A stretch of DNA of 45,768 nt. It comes from Saccharopolyspora galaxeae (GTDB taxonomy: Bacteria > Actinomycetota > Actinomycetes > Mycobacteriales > Pseudonocardiaceae). Below, in pieces: positions 20,621 to 39,210 of this stretch; the stretch's first letter is position 1, and each line of letters starts with the position of its first letter. Under the pieces are notes generated by a model that searched no databases, was not told the DNA's origin, and saw only the letters and a list, made by a program, of their open reading frames with translations. The stretch is taken from the NCBI RefSeq assembly GCF_016526145.1, contig NZ_JADDUE010000020.1, positions 1 through 45,768 of the forward strand. The letters run 5' to 3'. The position numbers and the translations under genes were made by a program.

Positions 20621-20651
20621 ACCCACTCGCTGCGGTCATCGCGGATCGGTC

Positions 20652-20682
20652 GTGAACCAGCGGCGCCGACGCGGCTACGTAC
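20652..20682 (+). promoter_or_regulatory. ECF sigma (MibX/PspX-type) promoter before ABC operon
   Basis: GAACC (20654-20658), exactly 15 nt, then GCTAC (20674-20678). The flanks CGTGAACC and GCTACGTACC are identical to the other two copies in the window. Predicted transcript start is about 20685, some 25 nt before the ATG at 20711. Confidence 0.87.
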
Positions 20683-20710
20683 CTTCCGAACGACGAAGGA
20701 AGGACGTCGC

Positions 20711-21469
20711 ATGTCGATCGGCACCGCGCAGCGAACCACGGCTGGTTTCGGCACCGTCGTCGCAACCGAGCTCTACCGCGCGCGCCACGGGCCACTGCTG
20801 TGGCTGATGCTGCTCAGCCCCGTCGCGCTGGCGCTGCCCATGCTGCTCGCGACGGCTCTCGGCGGTGACTGGGAGCAGTGGCAGGGGCTGGCGCTGATGG
20901 GCTGGGGCGGCCTGCTGCCCGCCGTCACCGCGCTGGCCGTCGGGCTCGACGTGCGCCAAGACCGGGACGCGTGGCTTTTCCTGCTCGCCGCGCCGGTTTC
21001 GCGGAACCACCTGGTGCTGGGCAAGGCCGCCGCGCTGGTGGTCGTCACCGCGCTCGGCAGCCTCGTGCTCGGCATCGCGTTGTGCGCCGGTGCGCTGCTC
21101 GCGGGCCTCGCGTTGCCCACCGGGCCGCTCACCGGAGTGCTCGCGATGTGGGTGGCGCTGTTCGGGATCGCGGGCCTGCTGCTGCTGCTGGCGATCAGCT
21201 TCGGTTTCCCGGTCACCGTCGGCGCCGGAGTCGTCGGGGTGTTCGCGGGGCTGCTCACCGCGGACAAGGCGTTCTGGTTCGTCAATCCCTTCGGCTGGCC
21301 GCTGCGCGCCATGCTCCCGTTCGGCAGGCGGCTGGTGGGCGTCGAGATCCCGGACAGCAGCCCGCTGGCCGCCACGGGGCCGGTTCTCACGGCGATGCTG
21401 CTGTCGCTCGCGCTGGCCGCCGCGACCACCGCAGCGGCCTGCGTCGTCCTGCGGCGCAAGGAGATCTGA
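20711..21469 (+). CDS. Lantibiotic-type ABC transporter permease (E1)
   Basis: A 252-aa membrane protein with six hydrophobic spans and the ABC-2/MutE-EpiE style core QDRDAWLFLLAAPVSRNHLVLGK. It is paralogous to the next gene: both contain TELYRAR near the start and AFWF-NPFGWPLRAMLPFG before the last span, and both end VLRRKEI. With the ATPase at 22303 it forms a transporter that probably protects the producer from its own lantibiotic, as LanFEG systems do. The ATG at 20711 has GAAGGAAGG upstream. It is first in an operon driven by a cluster-specific ECF promoter, which ties it to the lantibiotic genes despite lying on the opposite strand. Confidence 0.87.
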   Translation: MSIGTAQRTTAGFGTVVATELYRARHGPLLWLMLLSPVALALPMLLATALGGDWEQWQGLALMGWGGLLPAVTALAVGLDVRQDRDAWLFLLAAPVSRNHLVLGKAAALVVVTALGSLVLGIALCAGALLAGLALPTGPLTGVLAMWVALFGIAGLLLLLAISFGFPVTVGAGVVGVFAGLLTADKAFWFVNPFGWPLRAMLPFGRRLVGVEIPDSSPLAATGPVLTAMLLSLALAAATTAAACVVLRRKEI

Positions 21470-21547
21470 ATGCCGTCGCAGAACCGGCGCGGACGGCCAC
21501 CCGCGCAATCCACCCCTACCGGCCGCAGATCCTCGGGAGGAACCGCC

Positions 21548-22303
21548 ATGTCCATCGCTGCCCGGAACACCGCCGGGCTCGGCACCATCATCGGCACCGA
21601 GCTCTACCGCGCACGCCGGGGCTCCCTGGTGTGGCTGATGTCGCTGACGCCGCTGGTGATCGCGCTGCCCATGGTCGTCTCGACCGCGCTCGGCGCCGAT
21701 TGGCCCGAGTACCGCGGTATGACGCTGACCGGCTGGGGAAGCCTGCTTCCCGCGTTCATCGCCCTGCTCGTCGGGATCGCCGTCACCCAGGACCGGGAGG
21801 CCTGGCTGTTCCTGCTCGCCGCACCGGTAGCGCGCAACGGCCTGGTGCTCGCCAAGATGGCCTCGCTGGCCGTGATCACCGCGGTGCCCAGCCTCATCCT
21901 CGGCCTCGCGTTGTGGATCGGCGGAATCAACAGCGGGGTCCCGGTTCCCGCGGACGCACTGGCGGGCGCCGCCGCGATGTGGGTGGCACTGCTGGGGATC
22001 GCCGGGCTGATGCTGCTGCTGACCCTCGCAGCCGGGATGGCGACCACCATCGCCGTCGGCGTCGTCGGCGCGTTGGCGGGGATGCTGACCGCGGACAAGG
22101 CCTTCTGGTTCCTCAACCCCTTCGGCTGGCCGCTGCGCGCGATGCTCCCGTTCGGCCAAGTGCGGGCGAACGGGGTCGCGCTGCCACCGGGGAGCCCGCT
22201 GGCCGACCTCGGGCCCGCGTTCGCCGCGATGCTGCTGTCGGTCGTGCTCGCCGCCGCTGCCACCGCGCTGTCCTGCATGGTCCTACGACGCAAGGAGATC
22301 TGA
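21548..22303 (+). CDS. Lantibiotic-type ABC transporter permease (E2)
   Basis: A 251-aa six-span permease, clearly a tandem duplicate of the preceding gene (shared QDREAWLFLLAAPVARNGLVL and NPFGWPLRAMLPFG). The ATG at 21548 has GGGAGG upstream; the 78 nt before it carry no separate gene. Its stop overlaps the ATPase start as TGATG, so translation is coupled. Two distinct permeases with one ATPase match the F-E-G arrangement of lantibiotic immunity transporters, where E and G form a heterodimer. Confidence 0.87.
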   Translation: MSIAARNTAGLGTIIGTELYRARRGSLVWLMSLTPLVIALPMVVSTALGADWPEYRGMTLTGWGSLLPAFIALLVGIAVTQDREAWLFLLAAPVARNGLVLAKMASLAVITAVPSLILGLALWIGGINSGVPVPADALAGAAAMWVALLGIAGLMLLLTLAAGMATTIAVGVVGALAGMLTADKAFWFLNPFGWPLRAMLPFGQVRANGVALPPGSPLADLGPAFAAMLLSVVLAAAATALSCMVLRRKEI

Positions 22304-23007
22304 TGAGCACCGCACTCGCCGCCGACGACATCGTGAAGAGCTACCGCAGCACCCCCGTGCTCCGCGGGGTCTCCTTGGACGTCCCCACCGGCTCGGTCAC
22401 CGGCCTGATCGGACCCAACGGTGCCGGGAAGACCACGCTGCTGTCCATCATCGGCGGCCTGCGCCGCCAGGACAGCGGGAACGTGTCCGTCTGGGGCAGG
22501 CCGCGGCAGGCCGAGACCTTGCACGACGTGGGTTTCCTGCTCGACCACCCCGGCCTGTGGCCGTTCCTGACCGGCCGGGGGAACCTGCTGGTGCACGCAC
22601 GGCTGCGCGGCGTCCCGGAGTCCAGAGTGGACACAGTGCTCCGCCAGGTGGACATGGCCGAGCACGCCGACCGCAAGGTCGGCAAGTACTCGCTGGGGAT
22701 GCGCTGGCGGCTGGGAATCGCCATCGCGCTGGTCGGCGATCCGCGCGTGCTGGTGCTGGACGAACCGACGAACGGTCTCGACCCGGTCGGAATCCGGGAC
22801 ATGCGGGCGTTGCTGCGCTCGCTGGCCGACGAAGGGCGAGCCGTGCTGATCTCCAGCCACCAGCTCTACGAAGTGGCGCAGATCTGCGACCGCATCTCGG
22901 TGCTGGTCTCCGGCACCATGCGCTACCAGGGTCCGCTGCACGGCCTGGCCGACGACAACGACCTGGAGGCGGCGTTCTTCCGGCTGATCGACGGCGCCGC
23001 CAAGTAG
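22303..23007 (+). CDS. ABC transporter ATPase, lantibiotic immunity type (F)
   Basis: A 234-aa ATPase. Walker A is GPNGAGKT (residues 37-44), the Q-loop region is VGFLLDHPGLWPFLTGRGNL, Walker B is VLVLDEPTNGLD, and the H-loop is SSHQ. The signature loop is degenerate (KYSLGMRWRLGIA in place of LSGGQ), as often seen in MutF/EpiF-like immunity ATPases. It energises the two permeases upstream and is the last gene of the ECF-controlled operon. Only 40 nt separate its stop from the convergent gene ending at 23048. Confidence 0.92.
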   Translation: MSTALAADDIVKSYRSTPVLRGVSLDVPTGSVTGLIGPNGAGKTTLLSIIGGLRRQDSGNVSVWGRPRQAETLHDVGFLLDHPGLWPFLTGRGNLLVHARLRGVPESRVDTVLRQVDMAEHADRKVGKYSLGMRWRLGIAIALVGDPRVLVLDEPTNGLDPVGIRDMRALLRSLADEGRAVLISSHQLYEVAQICDRISVLVSGTMRYQGPLHGLADDNDLEAAFFRLIDGAAK

Positions 23008-23047
23008 GGCGCCGGGGAAGCCGCCCGCCGGTGCGGGAAGCGGGATC

Positions 23048-23602
23048 TCAGCCGCGGGGGCGCGCACCGCGCGGGCGGAGCGCGCTCCCGGTCGTGCCGG
23101 GCCGCCAAGCCTCCGCCAGGGCCCACACGTGCTGCACCGTCGCCGCCGCCCCATCCGCATCGGTTGCGGCGGGCGGCGGTGCGGTGACCAGCAAGCCGAT
23201 GCCTTGCCGGATCGTTGCGGTCTCGCCCGCCCCGGCCACCAGCGCCGCCCGCAGCAGCACCGCCAGCGAGTGCGAGTCCTGCGCACGGGCCGCGTTCACC
23301 AACCGGGCTTCCAGCGCGAGCACGACCCGTTCCCGCAGCTCGCCGGCGAGTTCGGAGCTCAGCGCGATTCCGGTCACCTGGTCCGCGAAGTACTCGTCAC
23401 CGGTGTGCAGCATCGAGGACCAGTCGAGTTCGACGGCACCGTTCGCCGGGATCGGCAGGACCTGCTCGGGGTCCTGCGGACAACGGCGCAGCGCCACGTC
23501 GGCCAACCGCCTGCCCAGCGCCGGTTCTCGCCCCTCGGCGGAGTGCAGCGACGTGCGCAGCGCGCTCAGCCGATCGAGCAACCGAGCACGGTGATCAGCC
23601 AC
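23048..23602 (-). CDS. Unknown protein at the distal end of the lan operon
   Basis: I do not recognise this 184-aa product. The GTG at 23602 has GGGAGGG upstream and overlaps the preceding gene by 8 nt, so it is the last member of the lanA-B-C-T-U-V transcript. The sequence is helical and soluble, with VLPIPANGAVELDWSSMLHTGDEYFADQV in the middle and ALAVLLRAALVAG-like helices later. There is no signal peptide or metal motif. Its tail is Arg/Gly-rich. By position it belongs to the cluster; whether it acts in biosynthesis or immunity is open. Confidence 0.75.
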   Translation of the reverse strand: MADHRARLLDRLSALRTSLHSAEGREPALGRRLADVALRRCPQDPEQVLPIPANGAVELDWSSMLHTGDEYFADQVTGIALSSELAGELRERVVLALEARLVNAARAQDSHSLAVLLRAALVAGAGETATIRQGIGLLVTAPPPAATDADGAAATVQHVWALAEAWRPGTTGSALRPRGARPRG

Positions 23603-24518
23603 GGGACGCCCTCCCGGAGGCGGCCATGACGGCCACCATGGTGGTGTGGAAGCAGGTGCCGAACAGGTACGCCGCCCGCTTATCACCGTCTACTTTGGAC
23701 AACACAGCGGAGTCGTGCAGCGGGCTCGGCACCGCGCCGTCCGCTCGCTGCGCCGAGGCGATCCGCTGCCACCCGTGCTCGACGAGTCCGCGGCAGTGCA
23801 CGCCGAGGATGTCCGCGCACAGCAGCAGCTCCCCCGCCAGATCCAGGTCGTCGCGCGCCAAGCACGCACCGAGCAGCACCGACACCGTGCGGCCCGCCTT
23901 CTCCCGATCCGCCAGGTCCGATCCGGACACCGGCCGGGAGCCGAAATCGGACAGGTAGAACAGCACGTGAGTCAGCGCGTACACCTCGTCGTCGGCGAAG
24001 GACAACGGCCCTTGCCGGGTGGTGAGCACGCTGTTCCGATGCGACTGATCCGTCCGGTACCCGCTGCGGTCGAAGCCGCCGAGGTCGAGGACGTAGCGCA
24101 GTTCGAGGCGGTTCAGCGCGGGCCGGTCGGCGGCGAACAGCTCACCGGTCCCGGTGTCCAGCACGGCTTGGACCAGCGAACGCGCGCGGGCCGGAGCGCG
24201 TCCTGCATCGGTGAGCAGGGCGACGAGATGCGCGTGGTAGGCGAAGGCCGGTCCGCCCCGGCTCAACTCGTCGTGAAATCCGGTTTCCGCGCAGACGGCC
24301 TCGGCCACCCGGTGCGCGGCCGTGCCGATCCGTTCCGCCCGTTCGGCGTGCGGGCCGCCGCGCAACAGGCGAACCAGGATCAACAGCTCCAGCAGCGGGG
24401 CGGCGCGGAACCTGCGGGGTGGCAGGAATCGTTCCCAGCGCGCGGGCTCGAACCACTCCAGATTGTTCTCCAGCCAGCGCAGCCCGTGCTCGGCCACTCG
24501 CTCCGCGGAGCCGGTCAC
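23595..24518 (-). CDS. Cluster protein of unknown function, LanV position
   Basis: A 307-aa soluble, helix-rich protein with no transmembrane span or known catalytic motif that I can identify. The GTG at 24518 starts 8 nt after the permease stop; longer frames would overlap the permease. The notable stretch is FADDEVYALTHVLFYLSDFG, and the C-terminal part ends YLFGTCFHTTMVAVMAASG. As I recall the mib and psp clusters, mibV/pspV of unknown function follows the T-U transporter; this gene holds the same slot. Homology to those proteins cannot be shown from sequence alone here. Confidence 0.75.
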   Translation of the reverse strand: MTGSAERVAEHGLRWLENNLEWFEPARWERFLPPRRFRAAPLLELLILVRLLRGGPHAERAERIGTAAHRVAEAVCAETGFHDELSRGGPAFAYHAHLVALLTDAGRAPARARSLVQAVLDTGTGELFAADRPALNRLELRYVLDLGGFDRSGYRTDQSHRNSVLTTRQGPLSFADDEVYALTHVLFYLSDFGSRPVSGSDLADREKAGRTVSVLLGACLARDDLDLAGELLLCADILGVHCRGLVEHGWQRIASAQRADGAVPSPLHDSAVLSKVDGDKRAAYLFGTCFHTTMVAVMAASGRASRG

Positions 24519-24525
24519 CGCCCGC

Positions 24526-25350
24526 TCACCTGCCCACGCGCAGCCGGACCGCGACACCGGCCACCGCGCCGAACGCCAGCAGCAGCACCAGGTCGAAAAG
24601 CGGATTCGCCTGCCCACCACCCGGCACCTGCTCGCCGGCGGCGTTGAGCAGCACGTGCCGGACCAGGTCCACCGCGTAGCTCATCGGGTTCACCCCGACG
24701 ACCGCGGTCAGCCAGCTGGGCAGCTGATCCGGCCGGAACACCGCGCCGGACAGGAACAGCATCGGGAACATCAGCAGCGCCACGCTCGATTGCAGCGTCT
24801 GCACCCGGCGGATCGCGGTCGCCAGGAACAACCCGATCGCGGAGAACACCATGCCGGCCACCGTGTAAGCCAGCGTCGCACCGAGGAATCCGCGCAGCGT
24901 CAGCGGAACCGACAACAACGGCGACAGCAGCAGCATGATCGCGCTCTGCACGCACACGATGATCCCCGTCGCGACCATCTTGCCCGCGGGCAGGCACACC
25001 TTCGGGGTCGGTGCGACCTGCATCTCGCGCAGCACCCCGAACTCCCGATCCCACGCGTAGCCGAGTCCCGAGTTGATCGCGACGGTGACGATCTGGATGG
25101 CTATCACCCCGGGGAAGACGTAAGCGCTGAACGGCAATCCCCCGTCCGGAGCGATCATGCTGTTGAAGCCGACGCCGAACACGACCACGACGAAGACCAT
25201 CTGCATCGCCTGCGTCGCCAGCATTCCCGGGTTGCGCAATTGCCGGATCAGATCCCGCTGCGCGATCACACCGATCGACCGGAACGCGCCCACCGCCGCG
25301 CGCTCGCCCAACCCGCTGCTGCCGCTCGGACGCTCAAGCAAGTTCGTCAT
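24526..25350 (-). CDS. ABC-2 permease, lantibiotic exporter (U)
   Basis: A 274-aa ABC-2 permease with six hydrophobic segments. Landmarks are VIAQRDLIRQLRNPGMLATQ (cytoplasmic entry), VFPGVIAIQIVTVAI, GYAWDREFGVLREMQVAPT (coupling helix) and LLMFPMLFLSGAVFRPDQLPSWL. The ATG at 25350 has GGAGG 5 nt upstream and overlaps the ATPase gene by 17 nt; the longer frame to 25566 is not conserved. By operon position it is the T-U exporter partner, probably secreting the modified peptide. Confidence 0.92.
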   Translation of the reverse strand: MTNLLERPSGSSGLGERAAVGAFRSIGVIAQRDLIRQLRNPGMLATQAMQMVFVVVVFGVGFNSMIAPDGGLPFSAYVFPGVIAIQIVTVAINSGLGYAWDREFGVLREMQVAPTPKVCLPAGKMVATGIIVCVQSAIMLLLSPLLSVPLTLRGFLGATLAYTVAGMVFSAIGLFLATAIRRVQTLQSSVALLMFPMLFLSGAVFRPDQLPSWLTAVVGVNPMSYAVDLVRHVLLNAAGEQVPGGGQANPLFDLVLLLAFGAVAGVAVRLRVGR

Positions 25351-26332
25351 CGCCACCTCCCGGGCCTGCACCGCCGCTGCGGGTGGCGGACAGGTAGACG
25401 TCGTCCATCGTCGGGTGCACGGCGCGCACTTCCACGACGCCGGTTCCAGCGCACCCGACGATCTCGGCGATCGATTTCTCGGGTTCCGCGCAATCGACCC
25501 GGAGAGCACCGGAATCCGGCGAGACCCGCCAGCCCGCGGCCACCAGGTTCGCGCTAGCCACCGCATCGTCCTGGGTGCGCAGCAAAACGCTCGACCTGGC
25601 CAGACCGAGCTTGAGCTGATCGGCGGAACCCCGGCGGACGAGCCGCCCGTCGCTGATGATGACGATCTCGTCGGCGACTTCGGCCTCGTCCATGTAATGC
25701 GTGGAGAACAGGATGCTCACGCCCAGTTCGTCGCGCATCCGCCGCAGGTCGTCCCACACCTTCGCGCGCGCCTCCGGGTCCAGGCCGTTGGTCGGCTCGT
25801 CCAGCACCAGCAATCCCGGCCCGTGCAGCAACGACCGCGCGACCTCCACGCGACGCGCCAACCCCCCGGAGAGGTTCCGGACGGCGTCCGAACGCCGATC
25901 GGCGAGCCCGAACCTGTCCAGCACCGCATCGATCCGTTGCCGGGACTCCTTGCTCCGCATCCCGAACAGCCGGGCGTGGAACCAGAGGTTGCGGTACACC
26001 GACAGGTCCTTGTCCAGCGTGCGCTCCTGGAAGACCAGCCCGAGCTGGGCGCGGGCGGCGACGGCGTCGTGCCGGATGTCCCGTCCGAAGATCCGGATCG
26101 TCCCCGACTCGCAAGGCACCGCCGTGCTGACGGCTCCCAGCACGCTGGACTTGCCTGCCCCGTTGGGGCCCAGCAGCGCGGTGACCTGCCCGGCCGGGGA
26201 CGAGTAGCTGAACTCGTCCACCGCGAGCACCGACGGGTAGCGCACCACCAGCCGGTCGATTTCCAGCGCGGCCACCGGGCCGGCGTCCGCACCGGTCCGG
26301 TCCATCACCGCAGTCCGAGGCACCACTGCCAT
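25334..26332 (-). CDS. ABC transporter ATPase, lantibiotic exporter (T)
   Basis: A 332-aa DrrA-like ATPase with Walker A GPNGAGKS (55-62), Q-loop VFQERTLDKDLSVYRNL, signature LSGGLARRVEVA, Walker B LLVLDEPTNGLD, the switch histidine in FSTHYMDEAE, and a C-terminal extension of ~80 residues typical of drug-exporter ATPases. The frame opens at 26332, 28 nt inside lanC. An ATG at 26305 that overlaps the lanC stop as TGATG (giving 323 aa) is an equally plausible, translationally coupled start. Confidence 0.9.
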   Translation of the reverse strand: MAVVPRTAVMDRTGADAGPVAALEIDRLVVRYPSVLAVDEFSYSSPAGQVTALLGPNGAGKSSVLGAVSTAVPCESGTIRIFGRDIRHDAVAARAQLGLVFQERTLDKDLSVYRNLWFHARLFGMRSKESRQRIDAVLDRFGLADRRSDAVRNLSGGLARRVEVARSLLHGPGLLVLDEPTNGLDPEARAKVWDDLRRMRDELGVSILFSTHYMDEAEVADEIVIISDGRLVRRGSADQLKLGLARSSVLLRTQDDAVASANLVAAGWRVSPDSGALRVDCAEPEKSIAEIVGCAGTGVVEVRAVHPTMDDVYLSATRSGGAGPGGGDDELA

Positions 26333-27708
26333 ACCGGTGCACCCCCTTCGTCGTCGTCCGGATGCGCTGCGGCGTGCAGCGCGGCGGCCACACCGGCGGC
26401 CCCTTCGAGCAATCCGGCCACGTCCACGGCCTTGTGCGTGCGTCCGTCGCTGCGTTGCCCGCCCGGGTAGCGCATCAGGTGCGGGAAGTGGAATTCCGCC
26501 CGATCATCGCCCAGTTCCAGCACCGAGCGCACCAACCGGGCCGTACCGGCGAGCAGCTCGGCGGAACCGGTATCCACCCCGACGCGGGTGCAGATCGCCA
26601 ACAGGCCCGCGTATCCGTGGCAGATCGTCGGGCCGTCGACGGCCCACTCCGCCTCGTCCCGCCGCAGTGCCGCCTGCAACGCGGAGACCGCTTCGGCCGT
26701 CCACTCGGGCCGGTCCAGCGCGGTACCGGCCGCGTGCAACCCGATCGCGACGCCCGGTGCCCCGTAGCACCAGGCGGTGCGGGTGATCGGGCGGGTCAGC
26801 TCGCTCGGGCCCGCGATCTGCTGGGCCAGTCCGATCCGGCACGGCCAGTACGGACCTGCGTCATCGGTCAGCTTCCAGTGCAGCAGCCATTCGACCGTGC
26901 GGGTGATCGCAGCGCGGTGCCCCGGCACCTCGTAGCCGTACGACGCCGCCCGGGACAGCACCGCGAGCGGGCCGGGCGCACCGTGCGCCAGCCCGAGGTT
27001 GAAGTCGCCCTCGGGGTAGTCGGCACGATCGCGGTCGGTCGGTTGCGCCTCCGGCGGCACCCACCACCCCGGTACCTCGTGTCCCCGGACATGGATCGGT
27101 TCGGTGCAGCGGACCAGGTGCCGCAGCCCGGCATCGAGGGCTTCGCGCACCCGCGAACCGGACTCGGCCGGATCGCGCGCGGATTCCAGCAACACCCGAA
27201 CCGAACCGGAAACCCCGTTGATCAGGTCGTACCCGGACCAATCCACCCCGGCGCCCTGCTGGGCCCGCAGGTGATCGACCTGCGCGAGCACCAGCTCGGC
27301 CAACCGGCCGGCCAGTTTCGCCCGCATCCGGGCGTAATGACCGCTGCCCGCCGCCGCGGCCTGCGCGGCCGCCAGCAACGCCGCCGGGCCGGCGAACAGC
27401 CCGCGGTGCGGCGTGCTCGGCAACGCCTCCGCCGCACGGGACAGGTGCTCGTGCGCGGTCGCGCGCCACCGGGTGTCCCGCCGTGCCAGTTCGCCGTAGA
27501 ACGCGGCCACTCCCGGCCAGCCGTTGGACAACGTGACCGGCGCCCACATCACGTTCCCGTAGATCGGATCCCGGTTGTCGTCGCGGCCGGCGACCGCCGC
27601 TACCCGGTCCGGATCGGCGAGCTTGTCCGCGACCACCGCCACGGCCTCGTCCACCCGGTCCCGGTCCGCCGCCGCGATCGGTGCGGCCGACTCCGTCCGG
27701 ACGTTCAT
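26305..27708 (-). CDS. lanC: Lantibiotic cyclase LanC
   Basis: A 467-aa LanC-like zinc cyclase that adds cysteine thiols to dehydro residues to form (methyl)lanthionine rings. Zinc ligands are Cys314 (AWCYGAPGV), Cys363 and His364 (TICHGYAGL). The active-site histidine is His242 in GLAHGAPG. The alpha/alpha toroid repeats (GLFAGPAALLAAA, NGVSGSVRVLLES) are recognisable. ATG at 27708 overlaps the lanB stop as ATGA. No Cys/His ligand is missing, so it should be active. Confidence 0.96.
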   Translation of the reverse strand: MNVRTESAAPIAAADRDRVDEAVAVVADKLADPDRVAAVAGRDDNRDPIYGNVMWAPVTLSNGWPGVAAFYGELARRDTRWRATAHEHLSRAAEALPSTPHRGLFAGPAALLAAAQAAAAGSGHYARMRAKLAGRLAELVLAQVDHLRAQQGAGVDWSGYDLINGVSGSVRVLLESARDPAESGSRVREALDAGLRHLVRCTEPIHVRGHEVPGWWVPPEAQPTDRDRADYPEGDFNLGLAHGAPGPLAVLSRAASYGYEVPGHRAAITRTVEWLLHWKLTDDAGPYWPCRIGLAQQIAGPSELTRPITRTAWCYGAPGVAIGLHAAGTALDRPEWTAEAVSALQAALRRDEAEWAVDGPTICHGYAGLLAICTRVGVDTGSAELLAGTARLVRSVLELGDDRAEFHFPHLMRYPGGQRSDGRTHKAVDVAGLLEGAAGVAAALHAAAHPDDDEGGAPVWQWCLGLR

Positions 27709-30893: not shown

Positions 30894-30920
30894 CCCGGAC
30901 TCCTCGACTCGCGGGCGGAA

Positions 30921-30951
30921 CCGCCGGGGCGGGCGGAACTCGCCCCGGCGG
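30921..30951 (-). terminator. Attenuator hairpin between lanA and lanB
   Basis: CCGCCGGGGCG (30921-30931) and CGCCCCGGCGG (30941-30951) form a perfect 11-bp stem with a 9-nt loop, beginning 10 nt past the lanA stop. Such read-through terminators after precursor genes keep the peptide mRNA in excess over the enzyme mRNAs. Confidence 0.75.
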
Positions 30952-30960
30952 CATCCGGAA

Positions 30961-31134
30961 TCAGCAGCAGTGGCTGCAGTTCGAGCCGCCGCCCTCGCTG
31001 GTGCACCCGGGGGTGCAGTACGAAACGCTGGTGACGGCGGGGTTGGCCATGGTGGCCTCGAAGCCGACCTCCAGGTCGAGGTCGAACAGGTCGACCTCGG
31101 CCTCGGCGACGGCCTGGTCCGTAGCAGCGGACAT
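30961..31134 (-). CDS. lanA: Planosporicin/NAI-107-like lantibiotic precursor LanA
   Basis: A 57-aa precursor. The leader (1-33) has the class I FDLD box (Phe17-Asp20, within DLFDLDLEVG) and ends NPA, where cleavage is expected (MibA also ends in PA). The 24-residue core (34-57) starts VTSVSYCTPGC and ends GGGSNCSHCC. From memory it equals planosporicin except Val for Ile at core position 1 and Tyr for Trp at 6; it also shares the Cys pattern 7, 11, 20, 23, 24 with NAI-107. Expected rings are 3-7, 8-11, 13-20, 18-23 and 21-24, with Dhb2 and Dha5. No LanD gene is nearby, so a C-terminal carboxylate is expected rather than AviCys. ATG at 31134 with GGAGGT 6 nt upstream. Confidence 0.95.
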   Translation of the reverse strand: MSAATDQAVAEAEVDLFDLDLEVGFEATMANPAVTSVSYCTPGCTSEGGGSNCSHCC

Positions 31135-31157
31135 GGTTACCTCCGTGATGGATCGGT

Positions 31158-31303
31158 GGTGCCCGGCGGGCACCTTGATCGGATTCGGCTGCACTCCCGG
31201 CCGGTGCCGGCCCCAGACCCGGTTGCGTGCAGCCCGTTCAGATCAGCAACCGGATCTCGCCGCGGCAACCGATCCGGGCCGGAATGGCAGAACTGGCAGT
31301 GCC
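31158..31303 (-). promoter_or_regulatory. lanA upstream control region
   Basis: Going upstream from lanA: a 7-bp hairpin GGTGCCC-ggc-GGGCACC (31158-31174) in the predicted leader RNA; three copies of the heptamer GCAACCG (inverted at 31220-31226, direct at 31246-31252 and 31265-31271, the direct pair 19 bp apart); and a double repeat reading on the minus strand CTGCCA-gtt-CTGCCA (31299-31285). The last motif recurs before the methyltransferase gene at 36723-36738. No GAACC-N15-GCTAC motif is present for lanA, consistent with activation by the LuxR-type regulator. Confidence 0.6.
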
Positions 31304-31362
31304 CGTGGCGGATCTGCGGCCGCCGTCCGCCGCCCGGAAGTTCGAAAACGGTGGATGTCGCC

Positions 31363-31394
31363 GTGAACCTTCGCGAATGCCGGTGCTACGTACC
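31363..31394 (+). promoter_or_regulatory. ECF sigma promoter before the sigma gene
   Basis: GAACC (31365-31369), 15 nt, GCTAC (31385-31389), with the extended flanks CGTGAACC and GCTACGTACCTTC. It matches the MibX/PspX promoter consensus exactly and implies that the sigma factor amplifies its own expression. Predicted transcript start about 31396. Confidence 0.9.
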
Positions 31395-31431
31395 TTCACT
31401 GAGGGATTCTGGTCGCTCGAGACCGGAGGCG

Positions 31432-32025
31432 ATGGGAAACAAGGTGACTGAGGCAGGCACGCACTCGGCCGGGCTGCTGGCGCGCGTCGCCGAAGGCGAC
31501 GAGGAGGCGCTGGGCCTGCTCTACCGCGAGCACGCGGGTTCCATGCTGCGCTTGATCGGGCGGCTGACCACGAACCGGGCCGAAGCCGAGGAGATCTTGC
31601 AAGAAGCCTGGCTGGCGGTATGGCAGTCCGCGGCAGCCTTCCGGGGTGACAGCGCGCCCCGCGCCTGGCTGCTCGGCGTGGCCCGCAGGCAAGCGCACAA
31701 CCGGCTGCGCCGCGCCGCGCTGAGCACGGCGGAGCTGGACGCGGCGGCTCAGGTGCCGCAGGCAGGCCCGGACGTGGAGGACCGGGTGCTCGCGGGCATG
31801 GAGTTCGAGCAGGTGCTCGCGCGGGTGCGGGACCTGCCCCGGCATCTGCGGGAGGTGCTGGACCTGGTGCTCGTGGAGCAGCTGTCCTACCGCGAGATCG
31901 CCGGAGTGCTCGACGTGCCGGTAGGCACCGTGAAAAGCCGGATGTCCCACATAAAACGGGAACTGGCGCAGGGCACGCACTGGGAGTCCAGCCATCGGCC
32001 ACCGCAGGAAGGGAGCAGGCGATGA
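31432..32025 (+). CDS. ECF sigma factor, MibX/PspX type
   Basis: A 197-aa extracytoplasmic-function sigma factor. Region 2 has EALGLLYREHAGSMLRLIGRL and AEEILQEAWLAVWQ (-10 recognition); region 4 has LPRHLREVLDLVLVEQLSYREIAGVLDVPVGTVKSRM (-35 helix-turn-helix). A strong GGAGG lies unusually close (2 nt) to the ATG at 31432; GTG at 31444 is the alternative. The downstream gene, overlapping as ATGA, is its anti-sigma factor. In planosporicin and NAI-107 producers the equivalent sigma is released when the lantibiotic or a precursor disturbs the membrane anti-sigma factor, giving feed-forward control. Confidence 0.95.
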   Translation: MGNKVTEAGTHSAGLLARVAEGDEEALGLLYREHAGSMLRLIGRLTTNRAEAEEILQEAWLAVWQSAAAFRGDSAPRAWLLGVARRQAHNRLRRAALSTAELDAAAQVPQAGPDVEDRVLAGMEFEQVLARVRDLPRHLREVLDLVLVEQLSYREIAGVLDVPVGTVKSRMSHIKRELAQGTHWESSHRPPQEGSRR

Positions 32026-32960
32026 GTCACCTGGACGCCGACGAAGTCCTCGAGGCGGCTCGGCAGCAGGCCGCGGGCGGCCGGGTGCGCTCCGCGGACC
32101 ACCTCCGCGAATGCGCGCGGTGCGCGGACGGCGTCGCTGCCATGGCGCGGTTGACCGCCGCGGGCGAAGTGCTGGCCGCGGAGGAGGATCGCGAGCTGGC
32201 GGTGCCCTCGTTCGAGCACGTGCGGGCCGCGTTGCCGGGGAACCAGGCCCGCACCGGCCCGCAGCGCGAACCGGCGCCGCGGGGCGCGCCCGAGCGGCGG
32301 GGGAAGCAGCTCCTGCGGTTGACGGCCGCGTTGGTATGGGCGCAGCTGGCGCTGCTGCCCCGCCTGCTGCTGCCCGCCAGCGCGTTCGCTTTCGCCGCTG
32401 CGGTCGTGCTCGCCACGGCGCTGCCGGAAAGCTCGGCCGGGCTCCGGGAACACGCCTTCGGCGCGGCCGTGGTGCTGATCGTGCTGGCCGGGGCGCTGAC
32501 CACGTATTCGGGTGGGCGCGATCCGCGCACCGAGCTGCAATTCAGCCTGCCCATCGCACCCCCGACGGTGTTCGTCTGCCGGGTGGTGGGCGTGCTGGGT
32601 CTCGACGTGCTGCTCGCGGTGCTCGGTTCGGTCGCGGTGCACGTGTTCGGCGGGTCGCCGAGCCTGGCCGGTGTCCTGGCGAGCTGGTTCGGGCAGGCGT
32701 TGCTGACCGTGGGGGTCGCCCTCGTGTTCGCGGTCGCGCACGCGCCGGCGACCGGCACGTTGGCGGGCGTGCTGGTGTGGCTGCTCGGTTCGTCCAGCGG
32801 TCTGCCGGAAGCCGGTGGGCTGGGCGGAATCCTGCGCCCGGCGGTTTCGACGCTGTGGACCAGTTCGCCCGCGGTGGTCGCGCTGGCGCTGGCCCTGCTG
32901 GCGATCGCGGTGCTGGGGATGCGGTTCCCCCGGTTCGGGCCGCGCCGGGAGGGGAGCTGA
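32022..32960 (+). CDS. Membrane anti-sigma factor, MibW/PspW type
   Basis: A 312-aa protein. The N-terminal zinc-binding anti-sigma motif H-x3-C-x2-C is present as HLRECARC (His27, Cys31, Cys34). After a linker there are six hydrophobic segments between ~residue 90 and 305, matching the six-span architecture I recall for MibW. The cytoplasmic N terminus should hold the ECF sigma at the membrane. ATG at 32022 with GGAAGGGAG upstream, overlapping the sigma stop. Confidence 0.92.
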   Translation: MSHLDADEVLEAARQQAAGGRVRSADHLRECARCADGVAAMARLTAAGEVLAAEEDRELAVPSFEHVRAALPGNQARTGPQREPAPRGAPERRGKQLLRLTAALVWAQLALLPRLLLPASAFAFAAAVVLATALPESSAGLREHAFGAAVVLIVLAGALTTYSGGRDPRTELQFSLPIAPPTVFVCRVVGVLGLDVLLAVLGSVAVHVFGGSPSLAGVLASWFGQALLTVGVALVFAVAHAPATGTLAGVLVWLLGSSSGLPEAGGLGGILRPAVSTLWTSSPAVVALALALLAIAVLGMRFPRFGPRREGS

Positions 32961-32969
32961 ACCATGGCC

Positions 32970-33001
32970 GTGAACCGCATCGAGCGGCGGCGCTACGTAC
33001 C
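32970..33001 (+). promoter_or_regulatory. ECF sigma promoter before the J-like gene
   Basis: GAACC (32972-32976), 15 nt, GCTAC (32992-32996), again within CGTGAACC and GCTACGTACC. It begins 12 nt past the anti-sigma stop and lies inside the first codons of the longest downstream frame. The predicted transcript start falls at about 33003-33006, on or beside the ATG at 33006. Confidence 0.88.
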
Positions 33002-33005
33002 GGGT

Positions 33006-33605
33006 ATGCGTTCGTTGTCGCGGTACGAAATGCGCCGCTGCGGTCCTGCGGTGCTCGCGGTGCCGCCGCTGGCGGGCATCACGGTGGGCATCGCGTCCTC
33101 GCTGGCCGGATGGCAGTCGTTGCTGCTCGGCGAGGTCCTGCCGGTTCTCGTCGCGCTTCCCGCCGCGGCGGTCGCGGATGGCGATCCGCTGCGCGAGCTG
33201 CACGAGACGCTGCCTCGTCGCTACGTGCGCACGGCTGCTTGCCGGCTGGGGATCGCGGCGGGTGCGGTGCTGACCGGTGTCGTGGCCGCTGCGGTGCTCT
33301 GCGCCGCGTTCGGCGGAGGCGCAAGCGTGCTCGGGCACGCGGCCGCCGCGTTGTGCTCCGCCGTGCTGCTCGTCGGCATCGGCGCGCTGGTGGGCGCAGC
33401 GTCCTCGTCCGCGGCGGCCGCATCGACCGCGATGATCGCGGTATGGCTCGGGCAGCTGCTGCTCGGTGACCGCATCCTCGGCGACGGCGCCGCGCGACTG
33501 CTGGTACCGGCCTGCGTCGGTTGCGCCGCGCTCGCGCTGGCGCTGCGCCGGTTCGACTCCGGCGCCGACGTGCTCGGCGCTGCCCGCAGCGGGGCCGGGT
33601 CATGA
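33006..33605 (+). CDS. Membrane protein, MibJ/PspJ position
   Basis: A 199-aa hydrophobic protein with about five to six spans (AVPPLAGITVGIASSLA, LPVLVALPAAAVAD, GAVLTGVVAAAVLCAAFGG, LCSAVLLVGIGALVGAA, TAMIAVWLGQLLLG, CVGCAALALAL). The frame is open from 32964, but the ECF promoter occupies its first 14 codons. The ATG at 33006 is therefore the likely true start of a leaderless or nearly leaderless mRNA. The cytoplasmic SLSRYEMRRCGPA start suits an ABC-2-like subunit. By order (J-Y-Z-Q) it matches the pspJ slot; the exact role is unknown. Confidence 0.85.
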   Translation: MRSLSRYEMRRCGPAVLAVPPLAGITVGIASSLAGWQSLLLGEVLPVLVALPAAAVADGDPLRELHETLPRRYVRTAACRLGIAAGAVLTGVVAAAVLCAAFGGGASVLGHAAAALCSAVLLVGIGALVGAASSSAAAASTAMIAVWLGQLLLGDRILGDGAARLLVPACVGCAALALALRRFDSGADVLGAARSGAGS

Positions 33606-34441
33606 CCGCGCCCGGAGTCCGGACGGTGCTCGCCACCGCGCGCTACGAGGCGCTGATCGCGCTGCGCACCAAGGCGCTGTGGTGGTCGCTGCTGCCCCTG
33701 ACCGCACTGGCGCTGCTGCTCGCCGCCACGTCCGGTCGGGTGGTCGGCGCCAGCGACCCGGTTCGCCGGGTGGCCGAGACTTCGCTGGTGTTCAGCCTGC
33801 TGTGCACGCTGGGCATCGCGGTCGGCCTCGCCGGACGACTGGCCGGGCACCGCCGCAGCGGGCTGACCGATCTGCTCGACGCCACCGCCGCGGGCATCCC
33901 GGCGCGCGTGGCGGGCTCGCTGCTCGGTTCACTGCTGGTGGCACTGGTGCCACCGGTCTGCGGTTTCCTGCTGCTGGTCGTGGTGACCTCGATCAGCACG
34001 GGCGCCCCGGCGGCGGTCGGCGCCGGGCTGCTGGCGATCGTGGTGGTGCTGCTGCCGGCGAGCCTGATGCTGAGCAGCTTCGCCGCGATGCTGGGCGTGC
34101 TGCTGCCGGTTGCGGCCGCCCGCGTGCTCACGGCGGTGTTCTGGCTGTGGGCGACGGTGCTCAACCCGATGCTGCTGCCGGTACCGACCGCGACCGGCAC
34201 GGTGCTTTCCCCGCTGGCGCGGTACCCCGCCGCAGCATGGCTGCACGCGTCACCCGCGTCCGCGACCTACGGCCTCAGCGGCGCGCTGCGCCCAGAAGTG
34301 CACAGCGCCACAGCCACGGCGCAAGTGCTGTGCACGCTCGCCGCGAGCGCGGTTTTCCTCGCGGTCGCGGCGATCCGGCTGAACGCACGTACCCGAGTTC
34401 CGAACCGGAGGGCACGATGGATGTCTCGCTCAGCGCAGTGA
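33602..34441 (+). CDS. ABC transporter permease, MibY/PspY-like
   Basis: A 279-aa membrane protein with six spans starting TVLATARYEALIALRTKALWWSLLPLTALALLLA. ATG at 33602 overlaps the previous stop as ATGA. The 3' end overlaps the ATPase gene by 25 nt, so the last eight or so residues may be dispensable. It is the membrane half of the second cluster transporter. Confidence 0.87.
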   Translation: MTAPGVRTVLATARYEALIALRTKALWWSLLPLTALALLLAATSGRVVGASDPVRRVAETSLVFSLLCTLGIAVGLAGRLAGHRRSGLTDLLDATAAGIPARVAGSLLGSLLVALVPPVCGFLLLVVVTSISTGAPAAVGAGLLAIVVVLLPASLMLSSFAAMLGVLLPVAAARVLTAVFWLWATVLNPMLLPVPTATGTVLSPLARYPAAAWLHASPASATYGLSGALRPEVHSATATAQVLCTLAASAVFLAVAAIRLNARTRVPNRRARWMSRSAQ

Positions 34442-35298
34442 CCAAGGTCTACCGGGGTGGCGCTCGCGTGCTCGACGGGCTCGACCTCGAGATCGGCGAA
34501 GGAATGCTCGGCCTGCTCGGCGCGAACGGGGCGGGCAAGACCACGTTGATGCGGTTGCTGACCACGGTGCTCAAACCGACCAGCGGCCGCATCGCGGTCG
34601 GCGGCCACGATCTGTCCACCCGTTCCGGGGTGCACGCGGTCAAGCGCATGTTGGGCTACCTGCCGCAGGAACTTTCGCTGTACCCGGAGCTGACCGGTGC
34701 CGAGTTCCTGGACTACGTCGCGCTGCTCAAGGGCATCGGCGACCGGGCCGAACGCCGGCGCCAGACCGACGACCTGCTCGAGCAGGTGGGAATGCGGCAG
34801 CACGCGAAGCAGCGCATCGGCGACTACTCCGGCGGGATGAAGCGCCGGATCGGCATCGCGCAGGCACTGCTGGGCGATCCCGAGCTGCTCGTCGTCGACG
34901 AGCCGACCGCCGGACTCGATCCGCAGGAACGGATGCGCTTCCGCGCGCTGCTGGCGGGGCTGTCCGGCGTCCGCATCGTGATCCTGTCCACGCACATCCT
35001 CGACGACGTGGCGCAGAGCTGCCCGAACGTCGCGGTGCTCGGCGACGGCAAGGTCGCCTACCACGGCAGCACGGCCGGGCTGACCTCCGCGGCGTCCGGC
35101 CGCACCTACCTGGTGCCACCGGGACGGCCGGTTCCACCGGATTCGACGGTCGTCAACGCCGTCGCCGGCCCCGAAGGCACCGAATACCGCGTGATCAGCG
35201 AGAACCCCGTTCCGGGGGCGCGGCAGGTGGAACCGTCGCTCGAGGACGGCTACGCGGCATTGGTGCGCAACAGTTCCGACAAGATGGCGGTGAATTGA
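34417..35298 (+). CDS. ABC transporter ATPase, MibZ/PspZ-like
   Basis: A 293-aa ATPase with Walker A GANGAGKT (35-42), Q-loop LGYLPQELSLYPELTGAEFLDYVALLKG, signature YSGGMKRRIGIAQ, Walker B LLVVDEPTAGLD and H-loop LSTHILDD. About 70 C-terminal residues form an extra domain (TYLVPPGRPVPPDSTVV, then EYRVISENPVPGARQVEPSLEDGY) common in bacitracin/lantibiotic-type ATPases. ATG at 34417 with GGAGGG 5 nt upstream. Its stop overlaps the lipoprotein start as TGATG. Confidence 0.93.
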   Translation: MDVSLSAVTKVYRGGARVLDGLDLEIGEGMLGLLGANGAGKTTLMRLLTTVLKPTSGRIAVGGHDLSTRSGVHAVKRMLGYLPQELSLYPELTGAEFLDYVALLKGIGDRAERRRQTDDLLEQVGMRQHAKQRIGDYSGGMKRRIGIAQALLGDPELLVVDEPTAGLDPQERMRFRALLAGLSGVRIVILSTHILDDVAQSCPNVAVLGDGKVAYHGSTAGLTSAASGRTYLVPPGRPVPPDSTVVNAVAGPEGTEYRVISENPVPGARQVEPSLEDGYAALVRNSSDKMAVN

Positions 35299-35675
35299 TG
35301 AGGACGTTGACGAAGCTGGTCCTGCTGGGATCCGCGGCGCTGGCCCTGACCGGGTGCGGTGGCGGTGGCCAGGGCACCGCGGAGGCGGGTGCACCGGTGC
35401 CGATGCCGCCCGCCCGCAACGGCGAGCAGCCGATCAGCGCGGCGAACATGGGGCACTTGTGGCCGCTGACCGTGCCCGGCGGTGTGCTCACCTGCGTCGG
35501 CGACAACGAGGCCGTGTTCACCGATCCCGGTGGCCGCTCCTACGCGCTCAACGAGCGCGCCGAGCGGCACCACCCCAGCATCGAGCCGCTGCGCGCCCAG
35601 GGCGAGGGCAGCGAGAAGATCAGCCTCGGCGCGTTGCGCAGCAAGACCCTGAAACTTTGTCCCGAGCAGCGGTGA
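35298..35675 (+). CDS. Lipoprotein, MibQ/PspQ position, DUF2511-like
   Basis: A 125-aa lipoprotein. The n-region MRTLTK, h-region LVLLGSAALA and lipobox LTGC (Cys19) are clear. The mature part (WPLTVPGGVLTCVGDNEAVFTDPGGRSYALNERA, then a second Cys near the end, KLCPEQR) resembles the DUF2511 fold with a probable disulfide. ATG at 35298 is coupled to the ATPase stop. In lantibiotic clusters such surface lipoproteins often bind the peptide for immunity; here that is inference from position. Confidence 0.88.
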   Translation: MRTLTKLVLLGSAALALTGCGGGGQGTAEAGAPVPMPPARNGEQPISAANMGHLWPLTVPGGVLTCVGDNEAVFTDPGGRSYALNERAERHHPSIEPLRAQGEGSEKISLGALRSKTLKLCPEQR

Positions 35676-35703
35676 GGCGGCCGGTTCCGCGCTGCGCCGC
35701 TCG

Positions 35704-36489
35704 TCAGCCCGCACGCCGGCTGGTGGCCAGCAACGAGCGGAGTTCGGCGCGGCTGGAAACTTGCAGTTTGTCGTAGAGCATCCGGATCCGCCGGTACAGC
35801 GTCCGCTCGGAGCAGAAGAACCGCCGGGCTATCGCGGAAACGGTCTCCTCGCTGCAGAGCATGTTCTTGAGCCGGTCCAGCTCTTCGTCGTCCATCGTGG
35901 GCTCGCCCGCGAATCCGGCCGCGCGCTCGTACGGCGCCATCAGCGCGTTGCTCACCCGGGTGTCCGCATCGGCACGCGAATTCCCCGCGTTGATGGCGGT
36001 GGCGCGCACGGCCTCGAGCTGGGCACCGACCGGGATCGCGAGGTTCAACACCGAGGATGCCCCGTGTTTGATGGCGGAGTACGTCTGGTGCCCGTTGTAG
36101 TCGTGCACCACCGCGACCACGGGTGAAAGCCAATGCCCGCAGTCCCGCAGATTCGAAATGCAGGCGGCCTGGTCTTCGCTGGTGGCGGGCAGAAACACCG
36201 GATTCCCGTTGTCCGCCAGCGCCTCCACTCCGGACGCCTCGAAGAACTCCACGGCGAAGCCGAACTCGGGCAACGGCAAGGTGCCCACCATCCCGGATAC
36301 CAGCGCCTTCAGGTGCGCGTGCACCCGAGCGGTAAGACATCCGGGAAGGTGCTGCGCACAGGCCTGCGGCCGGCGCTTGGCCGGTCCGTCGGCGGGCAAG
36401 TGCGTGATCGCGCGCGCGTCGAATCCGTTCGCCGGGCGCGGACAATCGAGCTCATTCGTTCTCCCCACAGCGACACCCCAGTCGAGCAC
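35704..36489 (-). CDS. LuxR-type regulator, MibR/PspR-like
   Basis: A 261-aa regulator with a C-terminal LuxR-type helix-turn-helix (DEELDRLKNMLCSEETVSAIARRFFCSERTLYRRIRMLYDKLQVSSRAELRSLL, ~195-255). The preceding region (SPVVAVVHDYNGHQTYSAIKHGASSVLNLAIP) is receiver-like but lacks an obvious phosphorylatable Asp pocket. The GTG at 36489 has no ribosome site, and a much better one (GGGGAGA at about 36463) serves an ATG in another frame, so the true start may lie downstream, for example GTG 36324. MibR/PspR homologues activate the lanA operon. It is convergent with the lipoprotein gene and divergent from the methyltransferase gene. Confidence 0.85.
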   Translation of the reverse strand: MLDWGVAVGRTNELDCPRPANGFDARAITHLPADGPAKRRPQACAQHLPGCLTARVHAHLKALVSGMVGTLPLPEFGFAVEFFEASGVEALADNGNPVFLPATSEDQAACISNLRDCGHWLSPVVAVVHDYNGHQTYSAIKHGASSVLNLAIPVGAQLEAVRATAINAGNSRADADTRVSNALMAPYERAAGFAGEPTMDDEELDRLKNMLCSEETVSAIARRFFCSERTLYRRIRMLYDKLQVSSRAELRSLLATSRRAG

Positions 36490-36826
36490 AAGAAATCATG
36501 GCCAGGCGCAGCCGCGGCAAGGTCCCCAGTATGCCGAAGCGCGCCTTCCGAATAACCCCAGGTGGTACTGAACGCCGTCACCTTAGCACAGCAAGATCCA
36601 TCACGGCTCGCTGATCGGACGGCCGTTTTCGGCGCATGCGCTCGAACCCTCGGTTGCGAAACCGTGCACCCGATCCTTCGGATCTGCACCTCCGGCTGCA
36701 CCGCGCCGCAATGCGCGCGGAACTGCCAAGAACTGCCATCCGGGTGTCGACCGGCTTTCCCGCAGCCGGTCCGATGCGAGTCTGGCCACCGGTTTGTCCA
36801 CAGCGGTGCAAGGAGAGGAAGCGACG
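36490..36826. promoter_or_regulatory. Divergent regulator / methyltransferase control region
   Basis: This 337-nt region carries no gene. It holds GGTTgcgaAACC (36652-36663) with the heptamer CGGTTGC also seen upstream of lanA, GATCC-ttc-GGATC (36671-36683), and the double repeat CTGCCA-agaa-CTGCCA (36723-36738) that mirrors the lanA upstream motif. I find no GAACC-N15-GCTAC motif on either strand here. Confidence 0.55.
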
Positions 36827-39024: not shown

Positions 39025-39210
39025 ACGACGTTCCGCCCGGCCGAGCGCACACCTGCGGAGCACGCCGAAGCGGGCTCCGCGGCAGTCCTGCCAACAGCCT
39101 GCCAACGGCCGCGCGAACCGGTGTGCCGGGTGATCCGCGGTGCCAGGCTCGGATCGCGATCGGGTCGACCGCCCGACGTTCCCGCAACGATTCCCGAGGA
39201 GGGGATTTCC

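Follow-up and report, generated by a model that had tools for sequence, protein, structure and literature searches.

Organization of the locus

The window, by which we mean the whole 45,768-nucleotide stretch of Saccharopolyspora galaxeae DNA that was analysed, carries a lantibiotic gene cluster made up of A-B-C-T-U-V, X-W-J-permease-ATPase-Q, R and the immunity operon E-G-F, together with genes for a methyltransferase, a glycosyltransferase and a small secreted protein that lie past R (Table 1). A sequence-only reading had described a planosporicin/NAI-107-type cluster at 20640-36490, an identification borne out by the precursor profiles, by LanB and LanC, and by synteny with four other clusters. 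The interval held for the core cluster but was one gene too short, and the genes that belong together reach past 36490, to about 39522.

Table 1. Genes and sequence elements of the cluster
Feature	Position	Strand	Basis or remark
ECF promoter element GAACC-N15-GCTAC, upstream of E	20654..20678	+	exact-site scan
E, immunity permease, MutE/EpiE type	20711..21469	+	model match below cut-off
G, second immunity permease	21548..22303	+	62% identical to E
F, immunity ATPase, TIGR03740 type	22303..23007	+	model match below cut-off
orfV2 (name given here), extra gene after V	23048..23599	-	no Pfam match
lanV, DUF6895	23595..24620	-	domain match, synteny
lanU, ABC-2 permease	24526..25350	-	domain match, synteny
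lanT, ABC ATPase	25334..26332	-	domain match, synteny
lanC, cyclase	26305..27708	-	WCYG and CHG motifs kept
lanB, dehydratase	27705..30893	-	Pfam Lant_dehydr_N/C; 5ehk, E 3.8e-285
GC-rich hairpin, lanA-lanB gap, putative attenuator	30894..30965	-	folding, z -2.85
lanA, precursor	30961..31134	-	57 aa, core VTSVSYCTPGCTSEGGGSNCSHCC; profile and sequence matches
CTGCCA-N3-CTGCCA, upstream of lanA, putative R operator	31285..31299	-	exact site
ECF promoter element, upstream of X	31365..31389	+	exact-site scan
X, ECF sigma factor	31432..32025	+	domain match
W, putative membrane anti-sigma factor	32022..32960	+	position and synteny only
ECF promoter element, upstream of J	32972..32996	+	exact-site scan
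J, membrane protein	33006..33605	+	position and synteny; start set 3' of ECF site
ABC permease	33602..34441	+	weak match, E 0.18; synteny
ABC ATPase	34417..35298	+	domain match, synteny
Q, putative lipoprotein	35295..35675	+	signal and lipobox by eye; synteny
R, LuxR-type regulator	35704..36489	-	weak HTH; synteny; true start uncertain
CTGCCA-N4-CTGCCA, upstream of methyltransferase	36723..36738	+	exact site
MycE/TylE-type sugar O-methyltransferase	36827..37978	+	3ssm, E 3.6e-73; 8ia9, E 8.8e-71
Family-2 glycosyltransferase, DHDD motif	37978..39024	+	domain match; full-length relatives only beside Tyr6 clusters
CTGCCA-N5-CTGCCA, upstream of secreted-protein gene	39088..39104	+	exact site
Small predicted-secreted protein, no known family	39211..39522	+	65% in Prauserella halophila

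The two modification enzymes, which the same reading had credited with their catalytic residues, look intact: LanB matches a lantibiotic dehydratase structure (5ehk, which we take to be MibB) and LanC keeps its motifs. As for the accessory genes that had been named, T, U, V, the sigma factor and the ABC genes were recognized by domain, W and J found no family match in the profile scans and owe their names to position and synteny, and the LuxR-type HTH of R is weak (E 3e-4, below the Pfam cut-off). The immunity ABC operon is likewise present, with two permeases and one ATPase. The reported lack of LanD, halogenase and P450 was upheld, since lanC and lanT overlap and leave no LanD between them, and neither of the other two enzymes occurs among the window genes scanned end to end with Pfam. 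Among the other-species clusters examined, orfV2 has a homologue in P. halophila only (35.5% over 152 aa), and the lanA-lanB hairpin recurs at the equivalent place in all three other clusters that were folded (z -1.94 to -3.61).

The precursor and its core

The position of the precursor and the assignment of residues 34-57 to a 24-aa core were confirmed; the leader carries VDLFDLDL and ends in ANPA. The precursor scores above the NCBIfam cut-offs for gallidermin/nisin (TIGR03731, E 5.6e-9) and for FDLD class I lanthipeptides (NF038155, E 3.7e-6), and a sequence search with it retrieves the NAI-107 structure 2mh5 ('Lantibiotic 107891', E 7e-5). Given a separate LanB and LanC and this FDLD-type leader, the cluster is, by sequence, one of class I. 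The cysteines at positions 7, 11, 20, 23 and 24 and the matching Ser/Thr residues form the planosporicin/NAI-107 pattern. Val4, Glu14 and His22 are presumably common to the window core and planosporicin, from which Val1, Tyr6 and probably Asn19 set it apart.

A match to planosporicin at 22 of 24 positions had been counted, which holds only if planosporicin has Asn19. With the planosporicin core presumed for this comparison, the computed average mass is 2193.4 for a Gly19 form with seven dehydrations, and 2250.5 (seven) or 2232.5 (all eight) for an Asn19 form. The published masses, 2194 Da in an excerpt of PMC10676316 and 2196 in Table 3 of PMC4539421, are near the Gly19 value and far from those of Asn19, so that 21/24 is probably the correct figure. 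For the window core without sugar, 2211.8 Da (seven dehydrations) and 2193.8 Da (eight) were computed. The planosporicin core and Gly19 strings do not occur in the open-licence papers searched, nor does the Tyr6 core string, which does not imply that the latter is unpublished elsewhere.

Tyr6 had been taken for a form without known counterpart. The core of P. halophila also has it, so Tyr6 is a clade trait and not a singleton; genome G381 encodes a precursor identical to that of the window.

Related clusters and their distribution

Similar clusters were found in P. halophila and in three further family members (G334, G235 and G420), and the genes of the core cluster recur in all four. The window cluster can be assigned firmly, on its gene and promoter sequences, to the planosporicin/NAI-107 group: the gene set A-B-C-(D)-T-U-V, X-W, J-ABC pair-Q, R and EF is present (the psp and mib records themselves lying outside the comparison), and the ECF promoter of the group, GAACC-N15-GCTAC at X-controlled operons, stands before E, X and J. 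The traits of NAI-107 proper are absent, there being no LanD (AviCys), Val4 instead of Trp4 (chlorination) and Glu14 instead of Pro14 (hydroxylation).

P. halophila likewise has no LanD; in G334 the protein was recognized as a Flavoprotein (PF02441), and in G235 and G420 it was identified by eye. A homologue of the methyltransferase (64% identity) adjoins the P. halophila cluster, whereas none was found in the three genomes with Leu6 clusters. Two clades thus emerge, one with Tyr6, the methyltransferase/glycosyltransferase pair and no LanD, the other with Leu6, LanD and no pair; a correlation resting on two clades could reflect shared ancestry. Seven of the 32 flanking ORFs listed for the Leu6 clusters were scanned, and no halogenase or P450 was found among them.

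Among 394 genomes sampled across the class, where the planosporicin and NAI-107 producers were not encountered, four gave a match: the genome of the window and three others with weak matches. Two of the weak matches were inspected, and neither is an NAI-107-type precursor. The terms 'planosporicin-like', 'NAI-107-like' and similar ones have no occurrence in the open-licence papers searched.

The methyltransferase and glycosyltransferase genes

The methyltransferase has a MycE_N domain and the motifs DDGSH and IED, which we take to be the conserved catalytic motifs of MycE/TylE methyltransferases; its structural matches 3ssm and 8ia9 are MycE and TylE. These enzymes methylate macrolide sugars, and their relatives modify sugars on small products. 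Among solved structures, the glycosyltransferase has its best relatives in polysaccharide and lipid-linked-glycan enzymes, chondroitin synthase and a beta-1,3-glucosyltransferase among them; its predicted structure (pLDDT 50.2, pTM 0.40, from a two-sequence alignment) was too poor for a fold search. The scan of the window genes turned up no NDP-sugar genes.

It is rather improbable that the product is a plain planosporicin-like lantibiotic and the pair a bystander that adjoins the cluster in both species by chance. MycE-type genes do occur in 10 of 60 genomes, one of them that of the window and the others at 32–51% identity, and the pair lies beyond R with a promoter of its own. A search of 397 genomes of the order, however, found full-length relatives of the glycosyltransferase in just three, the same three as among 190 family genomes, and all three (two of them one species) have the gene beside a Tyr6 cluster. 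A conserved chromosomal neighbourhood was considered as an explanation and rejected, as the 22 flank genes of the window have no match in the 17.5 kb beyond the P. halophila pair; in the 12 kb at the other end of that cluster the secreted-protein gene is the sole flank match. The pair has therefore moved, or been kept, with the cluster. A further point against coincidence is the promoter repeat that the pair has in common with lanA.

Promoter elements and the CTGCCA repeat

Exact GAACC-N15-GCTAC sites number three in the window (mean 0.03 in shuffles). They stand at the same three genes in P. halophila and G334, while in G235 they are exact at X and J and have a spacing of 16 at E. No such element was found at R in the window cluster.

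The CTGCCA repeat was first noticed by eye in these same promoters. Exact CTGCCA-N3-5-CTGCCA occurs six times in the 6.4 Mb genome, three of them before lanA, the pair and the secreted-protein gene. The genome-wide count is no higher than that of the reversed control (6 against 6; in P. halophila, 9 against 10), so the support for the repeat comes from placement only. In P. halophila an exact repeat precedes the methyltransferase gene, sites with one mismatch precede the secreted-protein gene, and the second of the two exact in-cluster repeats falls within T in antisense orientation. At the lanA promoter, P. halophila and G420 show no more than a two-mismatch repeat, which 6.6% of random 300-base stretches also match, and G334 shows no repeat at all. 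Binding of the repeat by R is guesswork. If R does bind it, the repeat would be a simple tool for drawing cluster boundaries in the planosporicin/NAI-107 family, and could draw in tailoring genes beyond the usual set.

These elements bear on the possibility, which we judge unlikely, that the pair belongs to the cluster of a plain planosporicin-like lantibiotic and acts on the envelope of the producer, in self-protection or signalling. Such a role would suit the glycan-enzyme relatives of the glycosyltransferase and the adjoining secreted-protein gene with the same repeat. Yet the immunity operons carry ECF sites in all four clusters scanned, the one with spacing 16 included, whereas the pair has no X-type site and has the lanA-type repeat instead; that MycE/TylE relatives modify sugars on small products also argues against an envelope target.

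Proposed product and its control

By analogy with the family, LanB would dehydrate about seven of the eight Ser/Thr residues, LanC would close five thioether rings and T/U would carry the peptide out, with immunity presumably provided by E-G-F, J, the second ABC pair and Q. X/W and R would govern the cluster, X acting at the GAACC-N15-GCTAC promoters of the E, X and J operons and R at the CTGCCA repeats of the peptide operon; the pair (36827-39024) would be part of the R-controlled biosynthetic set. The expectation of a simply planosporicin-like product is not supported, given that the pair co-occurs with Tyr6 in two genera and has its repeat in common with lanA. Co-occurrence and shared promoter repeats tip the balance, by a little, towards a class I lantibiotic with an O-methylated sugar attached to its peptide, perhaps on Tyr6.

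A narrower version is offered tentatively, at somewhat under even chances: the family-2 glycosyltransferase would sugar Tyr6, in the N-terminal half, the MycE-type enzyme would O-methylate that sugar, pair and precursor would answer to one regulator, and Tyr6, the pair and LanD loss would mark a sub-lineage of the NAI-107 group in two genera. Tyr6 would be the most plausible site for the sugar, and only residues 6, 14 and 22 follow the pair among the six distinct cores compared. The pair might instead modify another residue, such as Thr12, Tyr6 being an unrelated change, but this we hold to be very doubtful. In its favour, Thr12, which stays undehydrated in NAI-107, is present in all six cores (the planosporicin core included); against it, Thr12 is there also where the pair is absent.

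The predicted product, a class I lantibiotic that carries a sugar but lacks AviCys, chlorination and proline hydroxylation, would by inference from its family be antibacterial. NAI-107, an antibiotic at the preclinical stage, acts potently on Gram-positive bacteria, and the group binds lipid II. Glycosylation, if real, could alter solubility or spectrum.

Comparison with known systems

The psp cluster of planosporicin (Planomonospora alba), also class I and under sigma/anti-sigma and R control, presumably lacks LanD, halogenase and P450 as the window cluster does. It comprises 15 genes (PMC10676316, excerpt). The window cluster has in addition a second immunity permease, orfV2, and the methyltransferase, glycosyltransferase and secreted-protein genes with their common repeat. 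NAI-107/microbisporicin (Microbispora) has the same ring-forming residues, and its mib cluster the same set of B, C, T, U, V, X, W, J, ABC pair, Q, R and EF. The mib ECF consensus is GAACC-N15-GCTAC and a hairpin follows lanA (PMC4973701, excerpt); mibR has an ECF site, unlike R here.

Cacaoidin (class V, Streptomyces cacaoi) offers a precedent, being a Tyr O-glycosylated lanthipeptide whose cluster holds family-2 glycosyltransferases, the proposed rhamnosyl transferases (PMC8068269, excerpt). It differs from the window in class and in having rhamnose genes, and the excerpt names no MycE-type sugar methyltransferase. NAI-112, also actinobacterial, has a glycosylated aromatic residue, Trp (PMC10373908, excerpt), and differs in being class III, with labionin rings and the glycosyltransferase AplG. 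A glycosylated class I lantibiotic would thus be a new chemical type beside these previously met cases, as far as the excerpts go; the term 'glycosylated class I lanthipeptide' is absent from a small sample of open-licence literature. The window methyltransferase is of the family of MycE and TylE, which we take to be the mycinamicin and tylosin enzymes, and has the same conserved motifs; theirs are macrolide clusters, whereas it adjoins a lantibiotic cluster.

The planosporicin-type cluster

The biosynthetic cluster of Saccharopolyspora galaxeae is ordinary as a member of the planosporicin group. Its precursor lies at the position, on the strand and with the length that the sequence-only reading had given (see table), and it scores above the cut-offs of two models (the gallidermin/nisin family and the FDLD class I lanthipeptides), while a PDB sequence search with it retrieves NAI-107 (2mh5) as well as a further precursor of the gallidermin/nisin family (9g05). 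No second match of this kind exists in the genome, and an identical precursor is present in G381, another genome that carries this species label. The best match of LanB is 5ehk (E 3.8e-285), which we take to be MibB of NAI-107, and the alignment of LanC contains the WCYG and CHG motifs here and in all four other clusters described below. The lanA-lanB gap forms a strong hairpin, which resembles the attenuator mentioned after mibA, with hairpins at the same place in Prauserella halophila, G235 and G334 (the last only a little stronger than shuffles, z -1.94).

Features of the window and related precursor cores
Feature	Location	Strand	Description
PF04672 gene	19702-20579		S-adenosyl methyltransferase, split over two frames
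E-G-F	20711-23007		immunity operon
orfV2	23048-23599		183 codons, after V
lanA-lanB gap	30894-30965		hairpin
lanA	31134-30961	minus	57 residues: leader 33 with FDLDL motif, core 24, VTSVSYCTPGCTSEGGGSNCSHCC
R	35704-36489 (upstream region to 36790)		regulator
Methyltransferase	36827-37978	+	MycE/TylE type; 3ssm (presumably MycE) E 3.6e-73, 8ia9 (presumably TylE) E 8.8e-71
Glycosyltransferase	37978-39024	+	family 2; next gene after methyltransferase
Small protein gene	39211-39522		predicted secreted; after glycosyltransferase; two cysteines in mature part
P. halophila core			VTSVSYCTPGCTSEGGGSGCSHCC
G235 core			VTSVSLCTPGCTSPGGGSNCSFCC
G334 and G420 core			both alike, ITSISLCTPGCTSAGGGSNCSFCC
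G408 remote core (L088)	G408:C1:3234406-3234564		ITSVVVCTPGCGPSVGTFCTACCC

Downstream of lanA follow B, C, T, U, V and the further gene orfV2, for which the one homologue seen among the clusters of other species is that of P. halophila (35.5%); divergent from lanA are sigma gene X, W (putative anti-sigma), J, the ABC permease and ATPase genes, and Q; R opposes the X-Q set in direction, and E-G-F lies beyond V. W and J (no family match) and the permease beside J (a weak match only, E 0.18) are named by position and synteny. The statement of the sequence-only reading that halogenase, P450 and LanD are missing was borne out by Pfam scans along the window, which revealed no NDP-sugar genes either. 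E-G-F contains a tandem permease duplication (20711-22303; 62% identical), giving two permeases as opposed to one each in P. halophila, G235, G334 and G420. Judging from the family, the peptide would undergo seven dehydrations, carry five rings and bind lipid II, T/U would export it, and E-G-F and the J operon would provide immunity. The PF04672 gene has two more bases than in G381, which reflects either variation between strains or a faulty assembly.

The reported match to planosporicin at 22 of 24 positions requires Asn19 in the latter; with Gly19 it becomes 21/24. For planosporicin, PMC10676316 prints a mass of 2194 Da, and a table in PMC4539421 gives 2196. Seven dehydrations of the Gly19 core yield a computed average mass of 2193.4, near these values, and those of the Asn19 core one of 2250.5, or 2232.5 with all eight, far from them. 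The core nearest to planosporicin among those found is that of P. halophila (23/24, taking Gly19 for planosporicin), and neither core string occurs in the papers searched.

Related clusters

Searches for precursors of this type turned them up in 5 of 397 order genomes and in 7 of 390 family genomes (the window's own counted both times). The carriers are the two genomes of the window species, P. halophila, three other genomes of the family (G235, G334 and G420) and the remote G408, whose core has a cysteine layout unlike that of the NAI-107 group. The order A-V, X-Q, R and EF is common to P. halophila, G235, G334 and G420 (the direction of EF varies); the window species departs from it in carrying EGF at the opposite end, beyond V, and in having R inverted relative to Q. 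LanD lies between C and T in the three clusters with Leu6 (G235, G334, G420) and is absent from those with Tyr6 (window species and P. halophila). LanB and LanC of the window are 65% identical to those of P. halophila and 49-55% to the Leu6 group, values that agree with two sub-lineages.

Control elements

The window holds three exact copies of the ECF consensus that is reported for NAI-107 (PMC4973701), one each 5' of E, X and J (mean of shuffles 0.03); allowing one mismatch there are seven (versus 1.8). The same sites are found in P. halophila and G334, and in G235 at X and J, plus E with spacing 16. No such site precedes R or the methyltransferase in the window, nor lies directly 5' of R in P. 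halophila, G235 or G334. Given that mibR, unlike R, has an ECF site, the wiring of the feed-forward loop may differ from that in mib; transcription from the J operon could still reach R in P. halophila, G235 and G334.

A second element, CTGCCA-N3-5-CTGCCA, was spotted by eye in the promoters of lanA and the methyltransferase. Exact copies number three in the window (shuffles mean 0.02), 5' of lanA, the methyltransferase and the secreted-protein gene, and six in the entire 6.4 Mb genome; nine exist in P. halophila, among them one 5' of its methyltransferase gene and one antisense within T. A reversed control pattern is similarly common (6 and 10, respectively), so the number of repeats is not above chance, but their placement is. 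Allowing at most two mismatches in all, the repeat is present in 8 of 13 upstream regions examined: those of lanA in four of five clusters (two of these only at two mismatches; not in G334), and both each of the methyltransferase and the secreted-protein gene, but not those of E, X or R in the window or of R in P. halophila. In 2000 shuffled stretches of 300 bases, the share reaching two mismatches is 6.6% and that reaching one is 0.35%, with an exact copy in none. MibR drives the mibA operon (PMC4973701), which makes R the natural candidate for binding the repeat.

A proposed tailoring pair beside the cluster

The methyltransferase and glycosyltransferase lie beyond the interval first delimited (20640-36490). 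Both, like the secreted protein, have counterparts beside the P. halophila cluster (methyltransferase 64%, glycosyltransferase 57%, secreted protein 65% identity), where the secreted-protein gene is at the opposite end, its position relative to the cluster differing between species; no others matched when 22 window flank genes were compared with 17.5 kb and 12 kb beside that cluster. Glycosyltransferase matches at E 1e-20 or better occur in 21 of 397 order genomes and 10 of a 190-genome family sample (the samples overlap, and scoring was limited to a few top candidates from each genome), with the same three full-length in both, namely the window genome, G381 and P. halophila; the others span at most 190 of 348 residues. 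G235 and G334 have partial matches only, G420 being covered over 19 kb around its cluster. Methyltransferase homologues occur in 10 of 60 genomes including the window's own (the others with 32-51% identity over the aligned part), and in none of G235, G334 and G420. The secreted protein, which has no Pfam match, is found in 5 of 150 family genomes including the window's own, two distant only.

The pair might serve in self-protection or modify the peptide. Because its element is common to lanA and not to the immunity operons, tailoring of the peptide is the better reading. The glycosyltransferase would then put a sugar on the peptide during or after ring formation, and the MycE-type enzyme would O-methylate that sugar. 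If the pair acts as this suggests, the cluster is more than an ordinary one. In the parts consulted of the literature on glycosylated lanthipeptides, classes III and V were met and none of class I. The likeliest acceptor of the sugar is Tyr6, since residue 6 splits the clusters with the pair from those without it, an argument that is not unique because residues 14 and 22 and LanD separate them likewise. For cacaoidin, GT-2 enzymes have been proposed to place rhamnose on tyrosine (PMC8068269, in part).
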